From: Methanomassiliicoccales archaeon
Lineage (GTDB): Archaea > Thermoplasmatota > Thermoplasmata > Methanomassiliicoccales > JACIVX01
Reading direction: 5' to 3'
Length of the DNA: 64,000 bases
Assembly (NCBI GenBank): GCA_038850735.1
Contig: JAWCLO010000011.1
Location: forward strand, 1 to 64,000
Part shown: positions 52,038 through 64,000 of the stretch, one piece after another
How positions within the stretch are numbered: the stretch's first letter is position 1
Layout of the letters: each line of letters opens with the position of its first letter
Notes under the pieces: generated by a model
The model's database searches: none
What the model saw: only the letters and a program-made list of their open reading frames with translations
What the model was told of the DNA's origin: nothing
Program-made: the position numbers and the translations under genes

Positions 52038-53294
52038 ATGAGCGCTCTGCCTCAAGTAAGCATTCCAGTAATCATTCTTTTTGTCGTCTTCGCATTGATC
52101 GCAGTTCGTCAGGTAGGCCGCTTTCGCCTGAAGATCTGGCAAATTATGGCATTTGGTGCAATAGGTGTACTGGTAACAGGCCAGATTAGTCCAATTGATG
52201 CGATCTTCGCTATCGACCTCGATGTGATGTTATTCCTTTTTGGAATGTTCGTTGTTGGAGAAGCGCTAATTCAAAGCGGTTATTTATTCTACCTTGGTCA
52301 TAAAATATTTAGAACTGCAAAAAACACCGACCAACTTGTCTTGATGGTTTTATTCGTAATTGGTCTTCTGTCGGCATTTCTCATGAACGATACCCTCGCA
52401 ATCATCGGAACACCACTTGTTTTGCAGTTTGCTGCCAAATTCAAGATTTCTCCAAAGCTGATGCTTCTCGCGCTGGCCTTTGCGGTTACCACAGGTAGCG
52501 TCATGAGTCCTATTGGAAATCCCCAGAATCTTCTTATTGCGATCAACGGGAAAATCGAAAATCCGTTCATCACCTTTTTCACATACTTGGGTATACCTAC
52601 GCTGATCAATATTTTTCTCTGTTATCTGGTACTAAAGTTTTTCTACCGAAAAGAATTTGAAAGAGAAATTTCGAATAATGATGTTATATCGATAACAGAT
52701 CCTAGGTTGGCTACGGCCTGCAAAATCTCGATCATTCTCATAATATTGCTGGTGATGCTAAGAATCGGATTGTCAATCCTAGGTATGGGTGAGGAGTTTA
52801 GACTGACTTATATCGCCATCATCGCGTCACTTCCCATACTCATTGCAGGTGATAAGAGAATTCAAATATTGAAGAATATTGACTGGCATACGCTCATTTT
52901 CTTTGCATCGATGTTCATACTTATGGAAAGCGTATGGGATTCGGAATTCTTTCAGTCCCTTATCGCCCAATCGAATTATGATTTTTCATCTTTGTATGGA
53001 ATCTTGATTATCAGTGTTATTCTAAGCCAACTAATATCAAATGTGCCGTTTGTAGCGCTGTATCTTCCATTGTTAGTAGAAGCAGGCATCTCTGAGCAAG
53101 GATTAATGGCTCTGGCAGCGGGAAGTACGATCGCTGGAAATCTGCTAATATTGGGCGCTGCAAGTAATGTGATCATCATTCAGAATGCGGAGAAGAGGGG
53201 GGAAACTGTTGGATTCTTGGAATTTGCGAAGGTAGGAATTCCATTGACAGCAATTAATATGGCAGTGTATTGGTTATTCCTCAACATTCTATGA
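52038..53294 (+). CDS. Ion transporter superfamily permease (ArsB/SLC13/NhaD-like)
   Basis: This 418-residue protein has about eleven membrane segments. The paired re-entrant motifs of the ion transporter superfamily are visible: FLMNDTLAIIGTPLVL and SPIGNPQNLLIA in the first half, ISNVPFVALYLPLL and GSTIAGNLLILGAASNVII in the second. This arrangement fits ArsB arsenite pumps, SLC13 dicarboxylate/sulfate carriers and NhaD antiporters, which I cannot tell apart here. An arsenite role would go with arsM at 1180 but is not favoured by context. Confidence 0.87.
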   Translation: MSALPQVSIPVIILFVVFALIAVRQVGRFRLKIWQIMAFGAIGVLVTGQISPIDAIFAIDLDVMLFLFGMFVVGEALIQSGYLFYLGHKIFRTAKNTDQLVLMVLFVIGLLSAFLMNDTLAIIGTPLVLQFAAKFKISPKLMLLALAFAVTTGSVMSPIGNPQNLLIAINGKIENPFITFFTYLGIPTLINIFLCYLVLKFFYRKEFEREISNNDVISITDPRLATACKISIILIILLVMLRIGLSILGMGEEFRLTYIAIIASLPILIAGDKRIQILKNIDWHTLIFFASMFILMESVWDSEFFQSLIAQSNYDFSSLYGILIISVILSQLISNVPFVALYLPLLVEAGISEQGLMALAAGSTIAGNLLILGAASNVIIIQNAEKRGETVGFLEFAKVGIPLTAINMAVYWLFLNIL

Positions 53295-53456: not shown

Positions 53457-53948
53457 GTGAAAGAGATCGCTGTGATTGGCGCGAGGGGTAATATCAAAGA
53501 TCCCAATACAGTTATTACATATCTGCAAAGCCTTAAAGATGGTATAGGAATTCCGTTGAACGCAGATCTTGTTTGTGGGAAAGATCATTTAGTCTCTTCA
53601 GTTTACCATGCCATGAGGTCTTTTGAGCGTCAGGAAAATGTATCTGGCAATCTAGCAACAGAAATCCTGTTGTACGCTTCTGGGGAAAAACAGATTTCGC
53701 ATGCTTTGGAAAAAATGGGAATCAAAGCAGGCTATGAAAGGATCGCAATTGTCCTTATCGGCTGTGTTGACATAGATGAAGTTTTAAGCACTCTCGAACT
53801 TCAACGCGATGACTCTCTCCTCGAATTCTCCGTTGAGAAATTAAGGGCATTCGGCATTGATGAACGCGATATAATATCCCTAGAGCCTTCAGAACTAGAA
53901 GATCTAATTTTAGAACAAGTGGCGTTCGTGGATCTCATCAAAGGATGA
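53457..53948 (+). CDS. cgi121: KEOPS complex subunit Cgi121
   Basis: This 163-residue protein is a component of the complex that makes t6A37 on ANN-decoding tRNAs. The signature N-L-A-T-E-I-L-L-Y-A-S-G-E-K-Q-I-S-H-A followed by I-K-A-G is the Cgi121 hallmark, and IAIVLIGCVD is the second conserved strand. It starts at a GTG with no Shine-Dalgarno, so it may be leaderless. The kinase and Kae1 partners lie elsewhere. Confidence 0.87.
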   Translation: MKEIAVIGARGNIKDPNTVITYLQSLKDGIGIPLNADLVCGKDHLVSSVYHAMRSFERQENVSGNLATEILLYASGEKQISHALEKMGIKAGYERIAIVLIGCVDIDEVLSTLELQRDDSLLEFSVEKLRAFGIDERDIISLEPSELEDLILEQVAFVDLIKG

Positions 53949-54130
53949 TTCAATGATCGAAGTAGCAAATGCCAGTGAAATGTAAATCGTATATTGACAC
54001 TTCAAGATCCCACAGAGTCATCTAACTGAATGCAGGAAAGAAAAAAATTAATGACTTACACTGCCAATAAGACTCATTAACTTGAATTTAGAACACATCA
54101 TTTCATGTTCGAAAGCGGAGATGAAGGACT

Positions 54131-57100
54131 TTGCCTGGTGATTTCGTTAGCCAGCTTCAGCTTGCAAAACAACTGGAGCAAAAGGCAAAAGAAGCAGCAA
54201 GAAGCCGGAGGGCAGCTGAAGAGAAGATAGCTGAAGCCGAACTAGCGATCACTAGTATGAAGGAATTTGATATTACATCTGCCGAATCTCAGCGACTTTT
54301 TATCGAAGCTAAGGATGCACTAGCTCGCCGAGATTTCGAGGCAAGTTTAAGCCTCGCTGTGCAGTGCATTAACTCTGTCCAAAATGCCAAATGTGAAAAG
54401 ATCGATCAGATGCTGAAATCTGCTACGGAGCTTGTCAATCTCTTCGAAAGTGGGGATGCAGATCACGGAGCCATTTTGGAAAGCGTGCGAAACGTGCAAA
54501 ACTTGGTCTCAGAGAAAAAATTGACCGAAGCATACGAGAATGCCAAGAAAATTGCTGATAGAGCGGAACAGTACGTCAATCGAAAGATGGCAGAATTGTT
54601 CGGGAAAGTTCAGTCACTTCTGGTGCTTGCAGATTCTGTTGGACTAAAAGTTGAAGAGGAGCGGCAACTGCTATCTCACGCGAGAAGATGGTTTGATGAG
54701 GCGCAATATTCCCAAACGATCAAAGAACTACATGCATGCCTCAGCAGAATTCGGGATCTTTTCAGAACATATATAGAATCGAAATTTAACAAACTATTGG
54801 AATTGAGAGCATCACTTTTGTCTCTCAGATTTGACCCGTCTAAAATTGATGAGATATTGCTTGAAATAAAGAGGCGTGTAGAAGAAAACGATTTCGAAAT
54901 TGCACTGAGGAACTTGAAGATCGCGGAGATAGAAGCTCAGAATCTGTTGGTATCAGGTTTAAGGAATGGTTTAATACGACTACAGAAAATAAAAGAACTT
55001 TTAGAGATCAACAGCATCAACATCGGCGATGCTGAAAAAATTCTAAGTGATTTTCAAGAATTCCTCAAAAGCCAACAACTGGAAAAGGCGAAGATTGCCT
55101 ACGAAGAAGCTGCAAGAGCTCTGTCTAAAGCTGTGGGAGAATTTATCCTACAATCGGTTTTGAAAATGCAGCACAGATTAGTTATTGCGAAGAAACTGAA
55201 TATTGATCTCGACGAGGTTGCTAGATATCTCGAGTCATCAAAAAAGTCGTACAAGAGCGGGGAGTTTGAAAACGCCGTTGAATTTATTCACAAGGCCGAT
55301 GCATCTCTAAAGAAGGCACTTGAAGAATATGAAAGCATTGAGGCCGAATTTGCAAGAATCAAACAACTGCTCATAATAGGAAACAAGTATTCCGTGGATT
55401 TGGGCAGGGCTAAAGAAAGAATAAAGAACCTAAAAGGACTCATTTTCTCTCACAATTTCAAAGCGGCCGCTGAAGAATTGAAAGAAGCCCAGAGGGAAGC
55501 TCACATAGCGTTACAACAATACTTTGCAAAAAATATCATGGACCTAGAGCTCATGGTTGCTGATGTAGCAAAGATGGGAGCCGATATCGCCGAAGTGCAA
55601 GCTCTTTTGGATGATATTATTAACGCAGCGAAAGAGGGCAGATACGAGGAAGTTGCTGACTCGATAAGGCAATGCCGTGAAATCATCAATGAGAAAATGA
55701 TGCTTGCTGCGAGAGAAATCATTGCCTCTGCACTAAAATTCATTGAGACTCGTTCAGAACACATAGACATATCTGTGGCAAATTCAATCCTAAATGATGC
55801 AAAGGCGGCTCTTGAAAAAGGCGAGTATGAGCGGGCTTATAGCCTGGGAAAGAGCGCTCTTGAAAATGTTAGAAAATCCGAAACAAACGCAATAGCTAGA
55901 ATGCTCGAGGAAGCAGAGAAGCAATTAGAGATAGCAAAGAATCTTGGAGCGGATAGTGTAACACTCCGCGAGAAACTGAAAAAAGCTGCAGCACTTAGAG
56001 AAAGTGAGAATTTTTCCGAAGCGTTTGAGTCGGTTGTTGAAGTCATCAATTTATCAGCATCAATAATCGCAGATGAGCTCACGAGGAGATTAACTCCATT
56101 GCTGAGGGATATATCGTCGATGCGGCGAACTGGAATTGCCGTTGGAAAAATAGAAAGAATGATCGAAGAAGCTTCCCTGGCAATCGGAAAAAAAGAATTC
56201 ATGAAGGCTTACGAAGTTCTCAATCAAATTGAAAACCTTATCAAAGGGACGAAGACGCTCCACGCTGAAATATATGATAAAATCGTTGAGATATCAAATC
56301 TCCTCAAAGAGGCGAAGGAGCAAGGCAGGGACATTAGTGATGCAATGTCCCTGCTGCTTAAGGCCAAGAGGAATTTTGAAAGCGGGCGATATGAAGAGGC
56401 AAAAGAACTTATTGACCAGTGTTACGCATCTACGGAGAAGATTGTAGCACCATTCATAGCCACGAGGAGAATCCCCATAGTTAGAGATCTCCTCTCAATA
56501 ATGAAAAGAATAGGACTGGAGAGGGGGCAAGTGGAACGATTGCTTGCAGAAGCTGATGAGGCTGTGAGAAGCGAACGATTTTTAGAAGCATTGAATTCTT
56601 CGAGGGAAGCAGAGCAGATTGCCACAACATCTTTGATCAGAGAAATTTCGATGCGAATTGAAAATATACGCTCAAGCATCTCAGAAGCAACGAAAAAAGG
56701 TCAAGAGGTCGCTATCGTTGAAGGCGTCATCCAAAAGGCTGAAAGTCTGCTAAAAGACGGACGCTTTAATGAGGCACTGAAGGCAATTGATCTGGCAAAA
56801 GCTGAGATTGATCAAGCAATTGTCGTAGAGCGGAAGGCAGCAGAGCACGTTCAGCTCGCTGAGAGAATCATTGGGGATGTAGAAGCGATGATAGATGTAA
56901 CGGCATCAAAGAACCTTATCGATCAGGCCAAAAAAATGATGAATCAAGGAAAATTTGTTGTTGCATCAGAGTTGGCAAAGAACGCAGCTGAGCAAGCGAC
57001 CCGCAAAGCAATCGAATGGGTTATGGACGAACTCGCAAAGATTGAGGAGTTTTTCCGAAAAGAGGGTCTGGAGGGGATTGAATCAAAAACATTGAGCTCA

Positions 57101-58480
57101 TCGATTGAGGAAATACGCCGGCTTGCAAACGTCTGGCAATTCAAACAAGTAAGATCTATGATCAGCACCCTTCGAAATACGATGGAAAGACTCCGCCAGC
57201 AGAGGGATTTGACTGCGAAGACCCTTGAAGAAATCAAAATTGAGGTAAGCAAAGCAAGGGAACAAGGTCTCAAAGTTGATCACATTAGCGAAAAATTAAG
57301 AAATGCAGAGGAGAAGATGAAAGCGGGTTCATTCTCAGAAGCTTTCGCCATCGGCATGTCTTGTTCGGAAGAACTAAAATCCATACACGAGACTTTGAAT
57401 CGCAGAATAATAGAATGTGAGGAAATCAAGAAGAAAATCCAGGTACTCAGAAATAATGGTATTGATGTTTCAGGTTTGCGGAAAATGACTGAGTCAGTTG
57501 AGGAGGCGCTGAAATCCCTCGATTTCGAAAGGGCGGCTTTATTGATACAGCGCGTAAATACAAAAGCATCGGCGGAGTTGAAGCGACTAGTTGGAATGAA
57601 AAGGGAGGAATTAAGCGTACTTCTGGATCTCACTCGAAAGGCTGCCTTAGACGAGGAAGCATCGAAGCTTGTCGAAAGTATTGCGAGTGCTGAAAAAGTT
57701 GATTCTGGAAGCATAGATATCGATTTGATTGAGTCACACATCCAAGTAATCAAATCAACACTTCTGGAGGCTATTACTGGGAAATTATGGGAAATGACAC
57801 AGTTGATCGAAAATGAGAAGAAAAGTGGAAAGGAAACATCGTTGAGTGAGCGCTTGCTTTCTGAGGCCCAAGAGAGTCTCGAAACCGGTGATTTTGGTAG
57901 GTCCATCGAGCTCATTGAAGAGGCGCGTGCAAACATAGGTACTTCGGTGGAAGAATTTAGGGAGATTGAAAATCTGAAGAGCAAGATCAGAGGAATGATA
58001 GAATCGGCGCAAAACTGCGGGCTGCCAATAAATAGAATGACATACGAAGAGCTTTTGCAAAGGATTGACAACAGGGAATTTGACCGACCGAAATCCATTC
58101 TAAACGCCTTGAATGAAGCGGCCTCCTTACTGAAAGATGAGCTGGAAAGGCTTGCACCTGCCATTGTCATTGAATCTGTCGATCCCGGTATGCCCATTGA
58201 GGGGAAATGGTGCTCTATGAAGATTGCTCTTCGAAACAAGGGCGTAGCGATGGCTCGTGACATTTCCATAGAGATCAGCGGTGATCTTGACTATGGAAGG
58301 AGTACAACACGAAGCTGGCTTAAGGGAGGAGAAGCTCTTGTTATTGAAATAAAGTATTTGCCGAAACGCAGCGGAATTCTTGAAGTTGATATCATAGTAA
58401 AATGGAAACCAGCTTTCTCAGAAGAGATCTTAAAATCAAATAAGAAGGTAAATTTGGAAGTTGGCAGAGGGATCTCATAG
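54131..58480 (+). CDS. Giant helical-repeat protein with a C-terminal Ig-like domain
   Basis: This 1449-residue cytoplasmic protein (no signal peptide or membrane helix) consists of about twenty helical repeats of roughly 65-75 residues. Each repeat contains the core x-x-G/x-F/Y-x-x-A-x-x-h. Examples are RRDFEASLSLA, SGEFENAVEFI, KGEYERAYSLG, SGRYEEAKELI, DGRFNEALKAI and AGSFSEAFAIG. The helix before each core often ends in a G-x-D/E turn (for example GADIAEVQALL). The last 100 residues, from about 1348, form a beta domain (IESVDPGMPIEGKWCSMKIALRNKG) like a CARDB or Ig fold. The start is a TTG, 54131, behind ggag. I recognise no function; a scaffold, filament or rod is plausible. Confidence 0.8.
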   Translation: MPGDFVSQLQLAKQLEQKAKEAARSRRAAEEKIAEAELAITSMKEFDITSAESQRLFIEAKDALARRDFEASLSLAVQCINSVQNAKCEKIDQMLKSATELVNLFESGDADHGAILESVRNVQNLVSEKKLTEAYENAKKIADRAEQYVNRKMAELFGKVQSLLVLADSVGLKVEEERQLLSHARRWFDEAQYSQTIKELHACLSRIRDLFRTYIESKFNKLLELRASLLSLRFDPSKIDEILLEIKRRVEENDFEIALRNLKIAEIEAQNLLVSGLRNGLIRLQKIKELLEINSINIGDAEKILSDFQEFLKSQQLEKAKIAYEEAARALSKAVGEFILQSVLKMQHRLVIAKKLNIDLDEVARYLESSKKSYKSGEFENAVEFIHKADASLKKALEEYESIEAEFARIKQLLIIGNKYSVDLGRAKERIKNLKGLIFSHNFKAAAEELKEAQREAHIALQQYFAKNIMDLELMVADVAKMGADIAEVQALLDDIINAAKEGRYEEVADSIRQCREIINEKMMLAAREIIASALKFIETRSEHIDISVANSILNDAKAALEKGEYERAYSLGKSALENVRKSETNAIARMLEEAEKQLEIAKNLGADSVTLREKLKKAAALRESENFSEAFESVVEVINLSASIIADELTRRLTPLLRDISSMRRTGIAVGKIERMIEEASLAIGKKEFMKAYEVLNQIENLIKGTKTLHAEIYDKIVEISNLLKEAKEQGRDISDAMSLLLKAKRNFESGRYEEAKELIDQCYASTEKIVAPFIATRRIPIVRDLLSIMKRIGLERGQVERLLAEADEAVRSERFLEALNSSREAEQIATTSLIREISMRIENIRSSISEATKKGQEVAIVEGVIQKAESLLKDGRFNEALKAIDLAKAEIDQAIVVERKAAEHVQLAERIIGDVEAMIDVTASKNLIDQAKKMMNQGKFVVASELAKNAAEQATRKAIEWVMDELAKIEEFFRKEGLEGIESKTLSSSIEEIRRLANVWQFKQVRSMISTLRNTMERLRQQRDLTAKTLEEIKIEVSKAREQGLKVDHISEKLRNAEEKMKAGSFSEAFAIGMSCSEELKSIHETLNRRIIECEEIKKKIQVLRNNGIDVSGLRKMTESVEEALKSLDFERAALLIQRVNTKASAELKRLVGMKREELSVLLDLTRKAALDEEASKLVESIASAEKVDSGSIDIDLIESHIQVIKSTLLEAITGKLWEMTQLIENEKKSGKETSLSERLLSEAQESLETGDFGRSIELIEEARANIGTSVEEFREIENLKSKIRGMIESAQNCGLPINRMTYEELLQRIDNREFDRPKSILNALNEAASLLKDELERLAPAIVIESVDPGMPIEGKWCSMKIALRNKGVAMARDISIEISGDLDYGRSTTRSWLKGGEALVIEIKYLPKRSGILEVDIIVKWKPAFSEEILKSNKKVNLEVGRGIS

Positions 58481-58484
58481 TCCT

Positions 58485-58895
58485 TCATTGCAATGGCTTT
58501 GCCGGTACGAACTTGTATCCATAATGAATGACTCCTGCCTCTCCGTCCTCTCCGAGCTTCCTCAACGTGCTTCGTACCCTCATGCCAATCCTAACCTCTG
58601 ATGGTTCGCAGTCGATGACTTGTCCCGTAACCTTAACGCCTTCATCCATCTCCACTATCGCCACGATGTAAGGTTTCATCTTGTCTAGCTGTGCTGGTGC
58701 TTCGTGAACGACTGAGAAGGAATAGATCTCACCTTCGCCCCGCAGCTTAATTTCCTCAAGTCTACCCACGCTCTTCCGGCGGCAGGTAGGGCATATCGAT
58801 CTGGGCGGGAAAAGGATCTTCTGACAGACATTGCACCTTACTGCAATCATATTATACCTGCTGGGATTCTCACGCCAGAACCTAGCCGTTGACAT
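58485..58895 (-). CDS. DUF35 zinc-ribbon/OB-fold protein of the HMG-CoA complex
   Basis: This 136-residue protein has an N-terminal zinc ribbon (C21, C24, C35, C38) and an OB fold (EGEIYSFSVVHEAPAQLD, YIVAIVEMDEGVKVTGQVID). In archaea this DUF35 protein bridges thiolase and HMG-CoA synthase, binding CoA and channelling acetoacetyl-CoA (known from a Methanothermococcus complex). It is the last gene of the operon, one base after thiolase. Confidence 0.92.
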   Translation of the reverse strand: MSTARFWRENPSRYNMIAVRCNVCQKILFPPRSICPTCRRKSVGRLEEIKLRGEGEIYSFSVVHEAPAQLDKMKPYIVAIVEMDEGVKVTGQVIDCEPSEVRIGMRVRSTLRKLGEDGEAGVIHYGYKFVPAKPLQ

Positions 58896-62365: not shown

Positions 62366-63430
62366 TTATGGAAGCTCCCTGCCACATACATCAAGTTTGG
62401 TCGTTCCAATAACGATCCTGCGGACGTTCCCCTTGGCAGTGGTATAAATCTTAATAAGACCCTTAGCGGGCTCTGTTTCTATGACAACACCTATCCCCAG
62501 AAATTCCCGGTCCTTCCCGAACAATCCAACAATATTATTCTTAGCATCTTCCCATTTGCCTATCAAATCAACACTCTTATTATCGAAAGCACGAATCCTT
62601 CCTCCTGCAAGATACTTTGAAAATATTAGCCCACGAAGTCTCTTTCTCGTTTCTTGAGTTCTTATCTTGATTTCCGATGGTGATTCTACCCAGCAAATCT
62701 CTTCATCGAGAGTGTTTTCTATGTTACTGATAATATCGTTTTTCTGAGTGCCAATTACCAATGGTGAAGGCATTATATCTACCAGCGACTTCTTAAAACT
62801 CATAGCCTCGCTGCTATCCACCCAACCGTCTGTATTTACAATAATTATCTCTGATTTCTTTGATCTAGCAATGTATACCAGTTTCTTAAGCAATGAAAGA
62901 ATCCTGTTTTGGACAAAATAAGGAGATGTCGTTCCAATAAACTCGAGATGGGGCGAATGGATCGATTGTATGTCTGTTATTTCTCTGTCTAAAATGGCTA
63001 GCCCTATTGTTCCAGGAGGACCTAAGTCTGACTGGCCGAGATCTGTGTCGATAAAACAGACTGGCAAAAGATTAGACCTGATGCATCGGTTCGCAATATA
63101 TAGGCTAAGGCCTGATTTTCCCGAGTCGGTGCTACCAATGACGATAACGGACTTAGGTTTAGTCGATGAGATCTTGTCGACGCACGCTTTCCACGATGCG
63201 GGAATGGTATCTTTCGATAGTACATCATAAGACGATCCATGTCCTAGATTGATCGATGACGAGAATGACTCAACTGCAAAGAATGGCATTCTCTTATCTT
63301 TTCTCACAACCGCTTTTGTCCCTTTTTTGAGAAGAGCGCCGAAGCACTCTGCGGCACCCTCTCGCACTACAACAGATGCAGGTCCGTCGACAACTAACGT
63401 CGATCCTGTCGGAACTGTCATCTCGACCAT
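62366..63430 (-). CDS. Polynucleotide 5'-hydroxyl kinase, Clp1/GRC3 family
   Basis: This roughly 354-residue RNA/DNA kinase has an N-terminal beta domain (MVEMTVPTGSTLVVDGPASVV), Walker A GSTDSGKS and the family motif DTDLGQSDLGPPGTIGL. VNTDGWVDSS holds the Walker B-like Asp. A C-terminal beta domain (LFGKDREFLGIGVV, KGLIKIYT, VVIGTTKLD-like) follows. It would phosphorylate 5'-OH ends of RNA, as shown for archaeal Clp1. ATG 63430 is preferred over TTG 63457. Proximity to a tRNA gene is probably chance. Confidence 0.9.
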   Translation of the reverse strand: MVEMTVPTGSTLVVDGPASVVVREGAAECFGALLKKGTKAVVRKDKRMPFFAVESFSSSINLGHGSSYDVLSKDTIPASWKACVDKISSTKPKSVIVIGSTDSGKSGLSLYIANRCIRSNLLPVCFIDTDLGQSDLGPPGTIGLAILDREITDIQSIHSPHLEFIGTTSPYFVQNRILSLLKKLVYIARSKKSEIIIVNTDGWVDSSEAMSFKKSLVDIMPSPLVIGTQKNDIISNIENTLDEEICWVESPSEIKIRTQETRKRLRGLIFSKYLAGGRIRAFDNKSVDLIGKWEDAKNNIVGLFGKDREFLGIGVVIETEPAKGLIKIYTTAKGNVRRIVIGTTKLDVCGRELP

Positions 63431-64000
63431 GCAAACTCGATATTTGGGTAATTGCAAGATAATTCTATCTATGAGTAAAACAAAAATTATTGCAGTTCCG
63501 AATCTATATGATCAAAATGAGCAAAATAGAATTTATTTGCATTCGCATAAAGGGAACATATATAATTAATCAAGAGGATTATTCCTTGTTCAAGTTTTGC
63601 CGTCATCTCGTATTTTTGAGCTTGTCAATTCTACGTCCTTGAAACTTCGGAATATCTCGCCGTGAGATTTCTCAAGAATGCCGTTGGCGGTTACTCATGT
63701 ATGTTGTTGTGCTGGCTTATTCTCATGATGTGAAAACAAGAATCTTAGACAATCGCCCAACCATCTTATCCATGAGCCCAAAAGGAGTAATTATGATTAA
63801 GATGTGGAATCACACATTCTCGCAGGGGTACAAATAATCAATATTTGTTTCCTCGCCATAGTTCTCAAGGGATAAAAGGAAATCTCAGAGTTTTGGGGGA
63901 AATTCTTCTTGCGTCTTGCGAGGGAGGGAATACAGTTGGATATTTGCTGCAAGGATAAGCCAGAATCGAGCGGCCTTATATAAAGCGGGGAAAGCATACA
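63431..64000. other. Intergenic tail, possible promoter at the edge
   Basis: The last 570 bases hold no supported gene. An open frame at 63797-63997 (minus) has no ribosome site and no recognisable product. At 63975-63985 the sequence cttatataaag looks like an archaeal TATA box. The gene it serves, on the plus strand, would begin beyond base 64000; because the core is nearly symmetric the direction is uncertain. Confidence 0.4.

Follow-up and report, generated by a model that had tools for sequence, protein, structure and literature searches.

What a protein of 1449 residues with about twenty internal repeats might do in an archaeon is the question raised by one open reading frame in the 64,000-nucleotide stretch of Methanomassiliicoccales DNA analysed here (the window). 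The frame occupies positions 54131..58480 on the + strand, begins with TTG and carries a Shine-Dalgarno-like sequence, GGAGATGA (54117..54124, +), 6 nt 5′ of that codon. Its orthologues begin translation at the same residue. We use REPEAT as a working name for this mini-spectrin-like protein. Many Thermoplasmatota have little or no cell wall and, to our knowledge, their division and shape maintenance are poorly known.

The architecture of REPEAT is well supported, with a conserved N-terminal helix leading into 21 units and then into a C-terminal eight-stranded Ig/CARDB-like domain. The preliminary description had recognized an aromatic residue followed by x-x-A as the repeated core, and the motif counts bear this out. 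Residues 1-1330 contain 16 [FYW]xxA motifs (6.6 ± 2.4 expected), a number reached in 0 of 2000 shuffles. When the flanking residues are restricted as well, 9 motifs remain where 0.7 would be expected, and no shuffle has more than 5. In a profile of the family built from 45 sequences, autocorrelation is highest at lag 62 (0.176), while 200 column permutations yield at most 0.041. The repeat spacing first given as 65-75 residues must be corrected to 62-64. The unit anchors lie at residues 69, 131, 193, 255, 317, 379, 443, 505, 566, 628, 690, 754, 817, 879, 942, 1004, 1068, 1132, 1194, 1255 and 1318, a few of them non-aromatic, and the unit motif reads LLxxAxxxLxxGDYxxAxxLAxxAxxE. The array so delimited, to which the AlphaFold2 models also contribute, spans 54269..58150 (+). 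Its 21 units by our count, or 20 by an HMM trained on units of the family, agree with the original estimate of about twenty. At a mean pairwise identity of 13%, the units have diverged strongly from one another, so the expansion is old, as had been proposed.

AlphaFold2 models of REPEAT (pLDDT 87.6 and 88.2; pTM 0.42 and 0.50) show regular helices and then a β-sandwich, matching the all-helical array with a single β domain that had been read from the letters. Within each unit a 15-residue helix is joined by a 3-residue turn to a 39-residue helix that is common to adjacent units, and the modelled units are near-identical. This arrangement is predicted to be spectrin-type topology in miniature, in which the short helix would pack back on the first half of the long helix while the second half would belong to the next unit. 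Repeat-level couplings within the short/long hairpin reach z = 6.7. Weaker couplings join adjacent units, the second half of a given long helix being coupled to the first half of its successor (position pairs 25-11, 29-11 and 31-10). Their maximum z of 5.0, against 3.8-3.9 between non-adjacent units, is a modest signal. No signal is seen at offset 0, where side-by-side packing would be expected. The inter-unit couplings thus agree weakly with the spectrin offset.

The two ends of the protein are distinct from the array. Residues 1-45 (54131..54265, +) include a helix modelled at residues 4-45, and residues 1-31, with the family consensus YLKQLQLxKQLExKAKEAxxxR, form the best-conserved block of the protein (2.24 bits per position vs 0.8-1.6 elsewhere). 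The block is a candidate site for partner binding or self-association. At the other end, the eight-stranded domain (residues about 1345-1445; 58163..58465, +) matches Ig-like domains in Foldseek searches with E-values down to 1e-5. Pfam CARDB matches four relatives (best E of 4e-5) and not the window protein. In agreement with the preliminary description, REPEAT lacks a membrane helix, its hydropathy averaged over 19 residues nowhere exceeding 1.22.

Known families do not account for the array. It is covered by no family of Pfam, NCBIfam or PDB, which upholds the view that it lies outside any named family. Searches of Pfam and NCBIfam, and phmmer and profile searches of PDB, return only chance helical bundles, and PDB holds no relative by sequence. 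Pfam Spectrin matches neither the window protein (E ≤ 0.1) nor any of 30 family members (E ≤ 0.01), and EzrA is likewise absent from all of these at E ≤ 0.01. SMC models match 0 of the 30 members at E ≤ 0.01, and the window protein carries neither SMC_N nor SMC_hinge. An SMC/Rad50 coiled-coil ATPase was considered and rejected, as REPEAT has no ATPase domain and its short and long helices alternate regularly. The outcomes named in advance as contradicting the preliminary description did not arise. Literature searches for this analysis found no report of a spectrin-like rod from an archaeon.

The unit motif does resemble TPR-type hairpins, including a G-x-Y-x-x-A-like signature, and REPEAT might instead be a TPR- or HEAT-like superhelical adaptor, not a rod, that binds peptides or partners along its face, for example serving a ubiquitin-like or trafficking system as a hub by means of the RING-like zinc finger in which most relatives in other orders terminate. 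Isolated TPR_2/ANAPC3 matches in 2-3 of 30 relatives point the same way, as do a Prok-RING_1 match in 15 of 30 scanned relatives (best E of 1.7e-14) and a ThiF/E1-like gene beside one very long relative. However, a TPR unit has 34 residues and two helices of about 15, whereas REPEAT units have 62-64 residues and helices of 15 and 39. Moreover, the window protein matches no TPR profile in Pfam, and Foldseek finds 0 fold matches in PDB at E ≤ 0.001 for its N-terminal half, TPR structures included. The RING-like finger is also missing throughout Methanomassiliicoccales, the window protein lacking the Cys/His zinc-ligand motif of Prok-RING_1. We consider the adaptor reading improbable.

REPEAT orthologues are spread across the class Thermoplasmata. 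A scan of named GTDB genomes by N-terminal alignment found 50 loci, in Thermoplasmatota-type genomes only, although it requires exact conserved peptides and distant relatives elsewhere could escape it. Residues 67-1281 of the window protein (1215 residues) correspond to 1203-1218 residues in most full-length orthologues; array length is thus constant within about 1% in most orthologues, at identities down to about 20%. Some lineages carry many copies together with giants of 3155-3407 residues (about 45-50 units). In genome G280, the ThiF/E1-like gene mentioned above adjoins such a giant.

Within Methanomassiliicoccales, REPEAT lies between cgi121 and a thiolase gene cluster. In the window, the gene for the KEOPS subunit Cgi121 (53457..53948, +; NCBIfam), a neighbour conserved in the order, ends 182 bp upstream of REPEAT, and a gene for an OB-fold/zinc-ribbon protein (58485..58895, −; Pfam) belongs to the convergent thiolase/HMG-CoA-synthase-like cluster, which extends to 61118 and is supported by synteny. 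The neighbours in this order (Cgi121, Hel308, ThrB/ThrC and thiolase genes) serve metabolism, repair and tRNA modification, and include no division genes. Most other families likewise have no division gene adjoining REPEAT.

Elsewhere the neighbourhood differs. In family f18, ftsZ lies 6-51 bp upstream of REPEAT on the same strand in 8 of 8 testable genomes, namely those whose upstream flank was present in the data. Of the 37 genomes in the order of G128, 30 have smc-scpA-scpB directly upstream of REPEAT and in the same orientation, according to coordinates and Pfam. A further genome (G145) has smc-scpA upstream, and three genomes of family f14 (G079, G166 and G097) have scpB-smc convergent with REPEAT. 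Adjacency to ftsZ or smc-scpAB thus occurs in four separate lineages and in differing orientations. An early suggestion that REPEAT acts in division finds circumstantial support in these neighbours of its orthologues, and none in the gene order of the window.

The smc linkages would also suit an accessory subunit of SMC-ScpA, whose helical repeats would play the part that HEAT subunits have in condensin and cohesin. Against this, SMC is near-universal (155 of 157 good genomes of the class) and REPEAT is often missing, which led us to reject an obligate SMC subunit as the main reading. The window genome carries smc and REPEAT unlinked, on separate contigs (C2 and C11), and neither Pfam nor Foldseek identifies the array as a HEAT fold. 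Even an accessory role of this kind therefore seems very unlikely.

REPEAT is found in 0 of 43 class genomes that lack canonical FtsZ (FtsZ_C profile), a co-absence due mainly to one shared loss in family f2. Three genomes (G010, G019 and G022) have canonical FtsZ and no REPEAT at the syntenic site, indicating that REPEAT is dispensable there, and f22 includes further FtsZ-positive members without it. The ftsZ beside REPEAT in f18 belongs to a divergent clade apart from canonical FtsZs, and a first tree placed it close to a Methanomassiliicoccales FtsZ of 335-343 residues. The only f2 genome with REPEAT (G044) has a long-branch FtsZ that groups with the f18-like paralogue. Strict coupling to one FtsZ paralogue was rejected, because G019, G022 and G024 carry the paralogue with no REPEAT detected.

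Alternatively, REPEAT could be a skeleton or spacer of general use, in the cytoplasm or at the cell cortex, giving shape or membrane support to wall-less or thinly coated cells. It would then have no particular link to FtsZ or SMC, and its neighbourhoods would be inherited accidents. The multiple copies and giants fit structural material, the window's order and most families lack a division neighbour, and three genomes have lost REPEAT and kept FtsZ. However, adjacency to ftsZ or smc-scpAB recurs in four lineages, and the constant array length points to a specific spacing task. We regard this alternative as rather unlikely.

The reading we place first, at somewhat less than even confidence, is that REPEAT is an EzrA- or spectrin-like cytoplasmic rod of fixed length that serves FtsZ-based division, chromosome segregation, or both, a function suggested by gene neighbourhoods. 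Its three-helix bundles would follow one another end to end with a rise of about 27-30 Å per unit, so that 21 bundles would make a rod of roughly 60 nm. The regular helical array of the cytoplasmic scaffold first envisaged is present in the AlphaFold2 models, and it may form a straight rod. Two attachment sites are envisaged, one in the conserved N-terminal helix and the other in the C-terminal head, which is Ig-like here and comprises Ig plus a RING-like zinc finger in most relatives. The rod would hold its partners a fixed distance apart, as spacer or tether, in FtsZ-based division, SMC-based segregation or both. By analogy, it would resemble EzrA at the bacterial Z-ring, or spectrin between actin and membrane.

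EzrA, a spectrin-like regulator of the bacterial Z-ring (PMC4243239), is likewise a linear cytoplasmic array of three-helix bundles with distinct ends, as predicted for REPEAT, and the f18 gene lies beside an ftsZ paralogue. EzrA differs in being anchored in the membrane by its N terminus and in having five units, each of about 100 residues, in contrast to the 21 shorter units and Ig-like end of REPEAT. Eukaryotic spectrin and α-actinin share with the predicted structure a long helix common to neighbouring bundles, and very low conservation between units. However, the spectrin unit has about 100-106 residues, and no actin- or membrane-binding domains are seen in REPEAT. The SbsC spectrin-like repeat (PF22360) of a Geobacillus S-layer protein has a 62-position unit, and an artificial REPEAT consensus scores 26.1 bits against it (curated threshold of 26). 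The same consensus matches dozens of unrelated helical families, DUF1771 and TPR among them, so this score is no evidence of kinship, and we abandoned that route; no natural member matches PF22360, and SbsC is extracellular.

More tentatively, REPEAT may be part of an internal skeleton specific to the phylum, in which the 21-unit mini-spectrin rod and the giants would couple divergent FtsZ and/or SMC-ScpA to another cell structure through the N-terminal helix and the Ig/RING-like head, like spectrin or EzrA in form and unrelated to them in sequence. Extreme conservation of length without conservation of sequence makes the family useful for studying constraints on repeat proteins. Methanomassiliicoccus is in culture, and cultured hosts of REPEAT probably exist, so localisation and pull-down experiments are feasible. 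Large, clade-wide, fixed in length and encoded in some lineages beside ftsZ or smc-scpA-scpB, REPEAT is a concrete candidate for a role in division or shape, and through it the proposal that Thermoplasmatota have an internal skeleton or a division scaffold becomes testable.

The open reading frame at positions 54131-58480 of the window (+ strand) is real, as the preliminary description had it; it spans 1449 codons, begins with TTG and is preceded by GGAGATGA. The product of this frame (termed REPEAT, as are its orthologues) carries the aromatic-x-x-A core pointed out there, which is seen 16 times versus 6.6 expected, a count reached by none of 2000 shuffles. The spacing of 65-75 residues proposed for the units was too long. 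The true period is 62-64, and a family profile of 45 sequences has its autocorrelation maximum at lag 62 (0.176; highest across all lags in 200 permutations, 0.041). About twenty copies had been claimed, and this estimate holds: 21 unit anchors can be written from residue 69 to 1318 of the window protein, in which a unit HMM detects 20 units; in orthologues it usually detects 18-23.

AlphaFold2 was run on two halves of the protein that overlap, using for each 45 sequences taken from retrieved loci (mean pLDDT 87.6 and 88.2). The predicted unit is nearly metronomic: helices of 15 and then 39 residues are separated by a 3-residue turn, and a loop of 4-7 residues follows. A 42-residue helix lies ahead of the array, and the single terminal beta domain noticed earlier is recovered as an eight-stranded sandwich whose Foldseek matches are Ig-like domains. 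Spectrin shows the same up-down-up arrangement, every long helix being the last of one three-helix bundle and the first of the following one, but its unit has ~106 residues rather than 62-64. That REPEAT is a TPR-like adaptor seems unlikely to us. Packing was checked independently of AlphaFold2 by direct-coupling analysis of 1227 unit pairs. Non-local coupling is strongest where the short helix pairs with the N-terminal half of the long helix in its own unit (z up to 6.7). From one unit to the following one, the leading pairs connect the C-terminal half of the long helix with the N-terminal half of the following unit's long helix, and also with that unit's short helix. Because these reach 5.0, whereas control pairs two or three units apart reach only 3.8-3.9, the analysis modestly favours end-to-end stacking. 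If this is right, the rod would be roughly 60 nm long, a number that, like the rod shape, we infer. A general skeleton is a possible role for such an array, if not our preferred one.

Named loci and synteny place the window's genome in the order Methanomassiliicoccales, class Thermoplasmata. REPEAT matches occur in 39 of 61 genomes of the close-relative set and in 158 of 250 class genomes, some of them to small paralogues only; an improved profile found further full-length copies in families f14, f18 and f30. Identity drops from 46% within the genus to ~20% between families, with flanking enzymes mostly at 50-90%. Array length is far more constant: the stretch from residue 67 to 1281 of the window protein (1215 aa) is matched by 1203-1218 residues in most orthologues of full length, and the few that deviate do so by about one or two units. 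Residues 1-31 form the best conserved block (2.24 bits per position versus 0.8-1.6 elsewhere). Across families, same-position units are 17% alike, only a little above the 14% for different positions, and a unit's best match stands at its own position in 27 of 141 cases (chance 1 in 18); the array was thus probably assembled before the class split.

Most orthologues outside the window's order end in a Cys/His-rich finger (Prok-RING_1 in 15 of 30 relatives scanned, best E 1.7e-14), which is absent from REPEAT of the window's order; the two f14 members scanned have a repeat unit, and no finger, at the C-terminus. After the finger, orthologues at loci L118, L119, L121, L126, L127, L131 and L132 carry a short conserved basic-hydrophobic tail, about K-K-x-V/L-A-L/I-K/R-F/I, possibly a docking peptide. 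In small paralogues of ~350 aa, a double zinc ribbon is combined with four units (the copy in the window's genome, L051:6309-7349 on contig C6, has 346 aa; also L052:6132-7124, L054:5930-7021 and similar others). These paralogues are present in most genomes of the order that carry REPEAT, and may act as a regulator or cap. Other classes of the phylum and family f29 have proteins of 3155-3407 residues with ~45-50 REPEAT-type units (L223:5664-15128, 3155 aa; L224:5619-15167, 3183 aa; L226:2372-12592, 3407 aa). A ThiF/E1-like gene lies directly upstream of the L223 giant.

In Methanomassiliicoccales the gene order is Hel308, (KaiC-like), ThrC, ThrB, Cgi121, REPEAT, OB/Zn, thiolase, HMGS-like and HTH regulator; REPEAT is missing from this slot in family f2 and in genomes G010, G019 and G022. 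In the window's genus a CitMHS-type transporter (52038-53294) sits between thrB and cgi121, which is not so in the order's other families examined. The window also encodes a CLP1-type polynucleotide kinase-like protein at 62366-63457 (Pfam CLP1_P, 2e-31).

Three further settings, whose genes were identified with Pfam, recur outside that slot. In f18, REPEAT follows ftsZ by 6-51 bp, with both genes on one strand, in each of the eight genomes for which this flank is available, and an archaeosine-synthase-like gene is directly downstream. In the order of genome G128 (six families), REPEAT directly follows smc-scpA-scpB in the same orientation; by coordinates, 27 genomes have smc and 3 more scpA on REPEAT's contig, 6 are not assessable and 1 (G200) is contrary. 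G145 has smc-scpA upstream, and in G079, G166 and G097 scpB is convergent with REPEAT, the ends ranging from a 20 bp overlap to a 22 bp gap. That REPEAT is itself an SMC subunit is, in our judgement, improbable. The SMC encoded at L124:10766-14926 is interrupted close to its ATPase P-loop by an intein-splicing domain (residues 46-231).

The ftsZ gene of f18 encodes a genuine FtsZ (E 1e-72 to PDB archaeal FtsZ homolog 1), in a clade apart from canonical FtsZs. A model of the FtsZ C-domain has no match in 43 of 250 class genomes (by subtracting listed positives, 32 in f2 and 11 in f22), and REPEAT occurs in none of the 43. In f2, 32 of 33 class genomes (G006, G011, G014 and others) have no canonical match; the exception, G044, has a weak one and is also the sole f2 genome with REPEAT. 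Every f2 genome tested retains a tubulin/FtsZ GTPase domain, mostly of the short type. The converse of this co-absence fails, FtsZ-positive genomes without REPEAT being common. Since f22 is without REPEAT whether FtsZ is present or not, the informative part reduces to one joint loss and one joint retention. Methanomassiliicoccales also have an additional divergent FtsZ paralogue of 335-343 aa near canonical ftsZ and separate in the tree (L291:476-1480; L296:526-1551; L305:3079-4104; L316:985-2013).

The analysis shows the sequence and its periodicity, the secondary structure as predicted, the constant length and the gene order, and these data support a long cytoplasmic helical array of constrained length whose two ends differ. 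Its attachment sites and every partner we infer. Because FtsZ and SMC neighbours are frequent, in differing orientations and orders, a division or segregation scaffold is tentatively ranked the single likeliest of four readings, followed by a general skeleton, then a TPR-like adaptor and last an SMC subunit. REPEAT belongs to neither the EzrA nor the spectrin family, because profile, unit-length and membrane-anchor tests all fail. If the scaffold reading is right, REPEAT would, by analogy, work like EzrA or spectrin.
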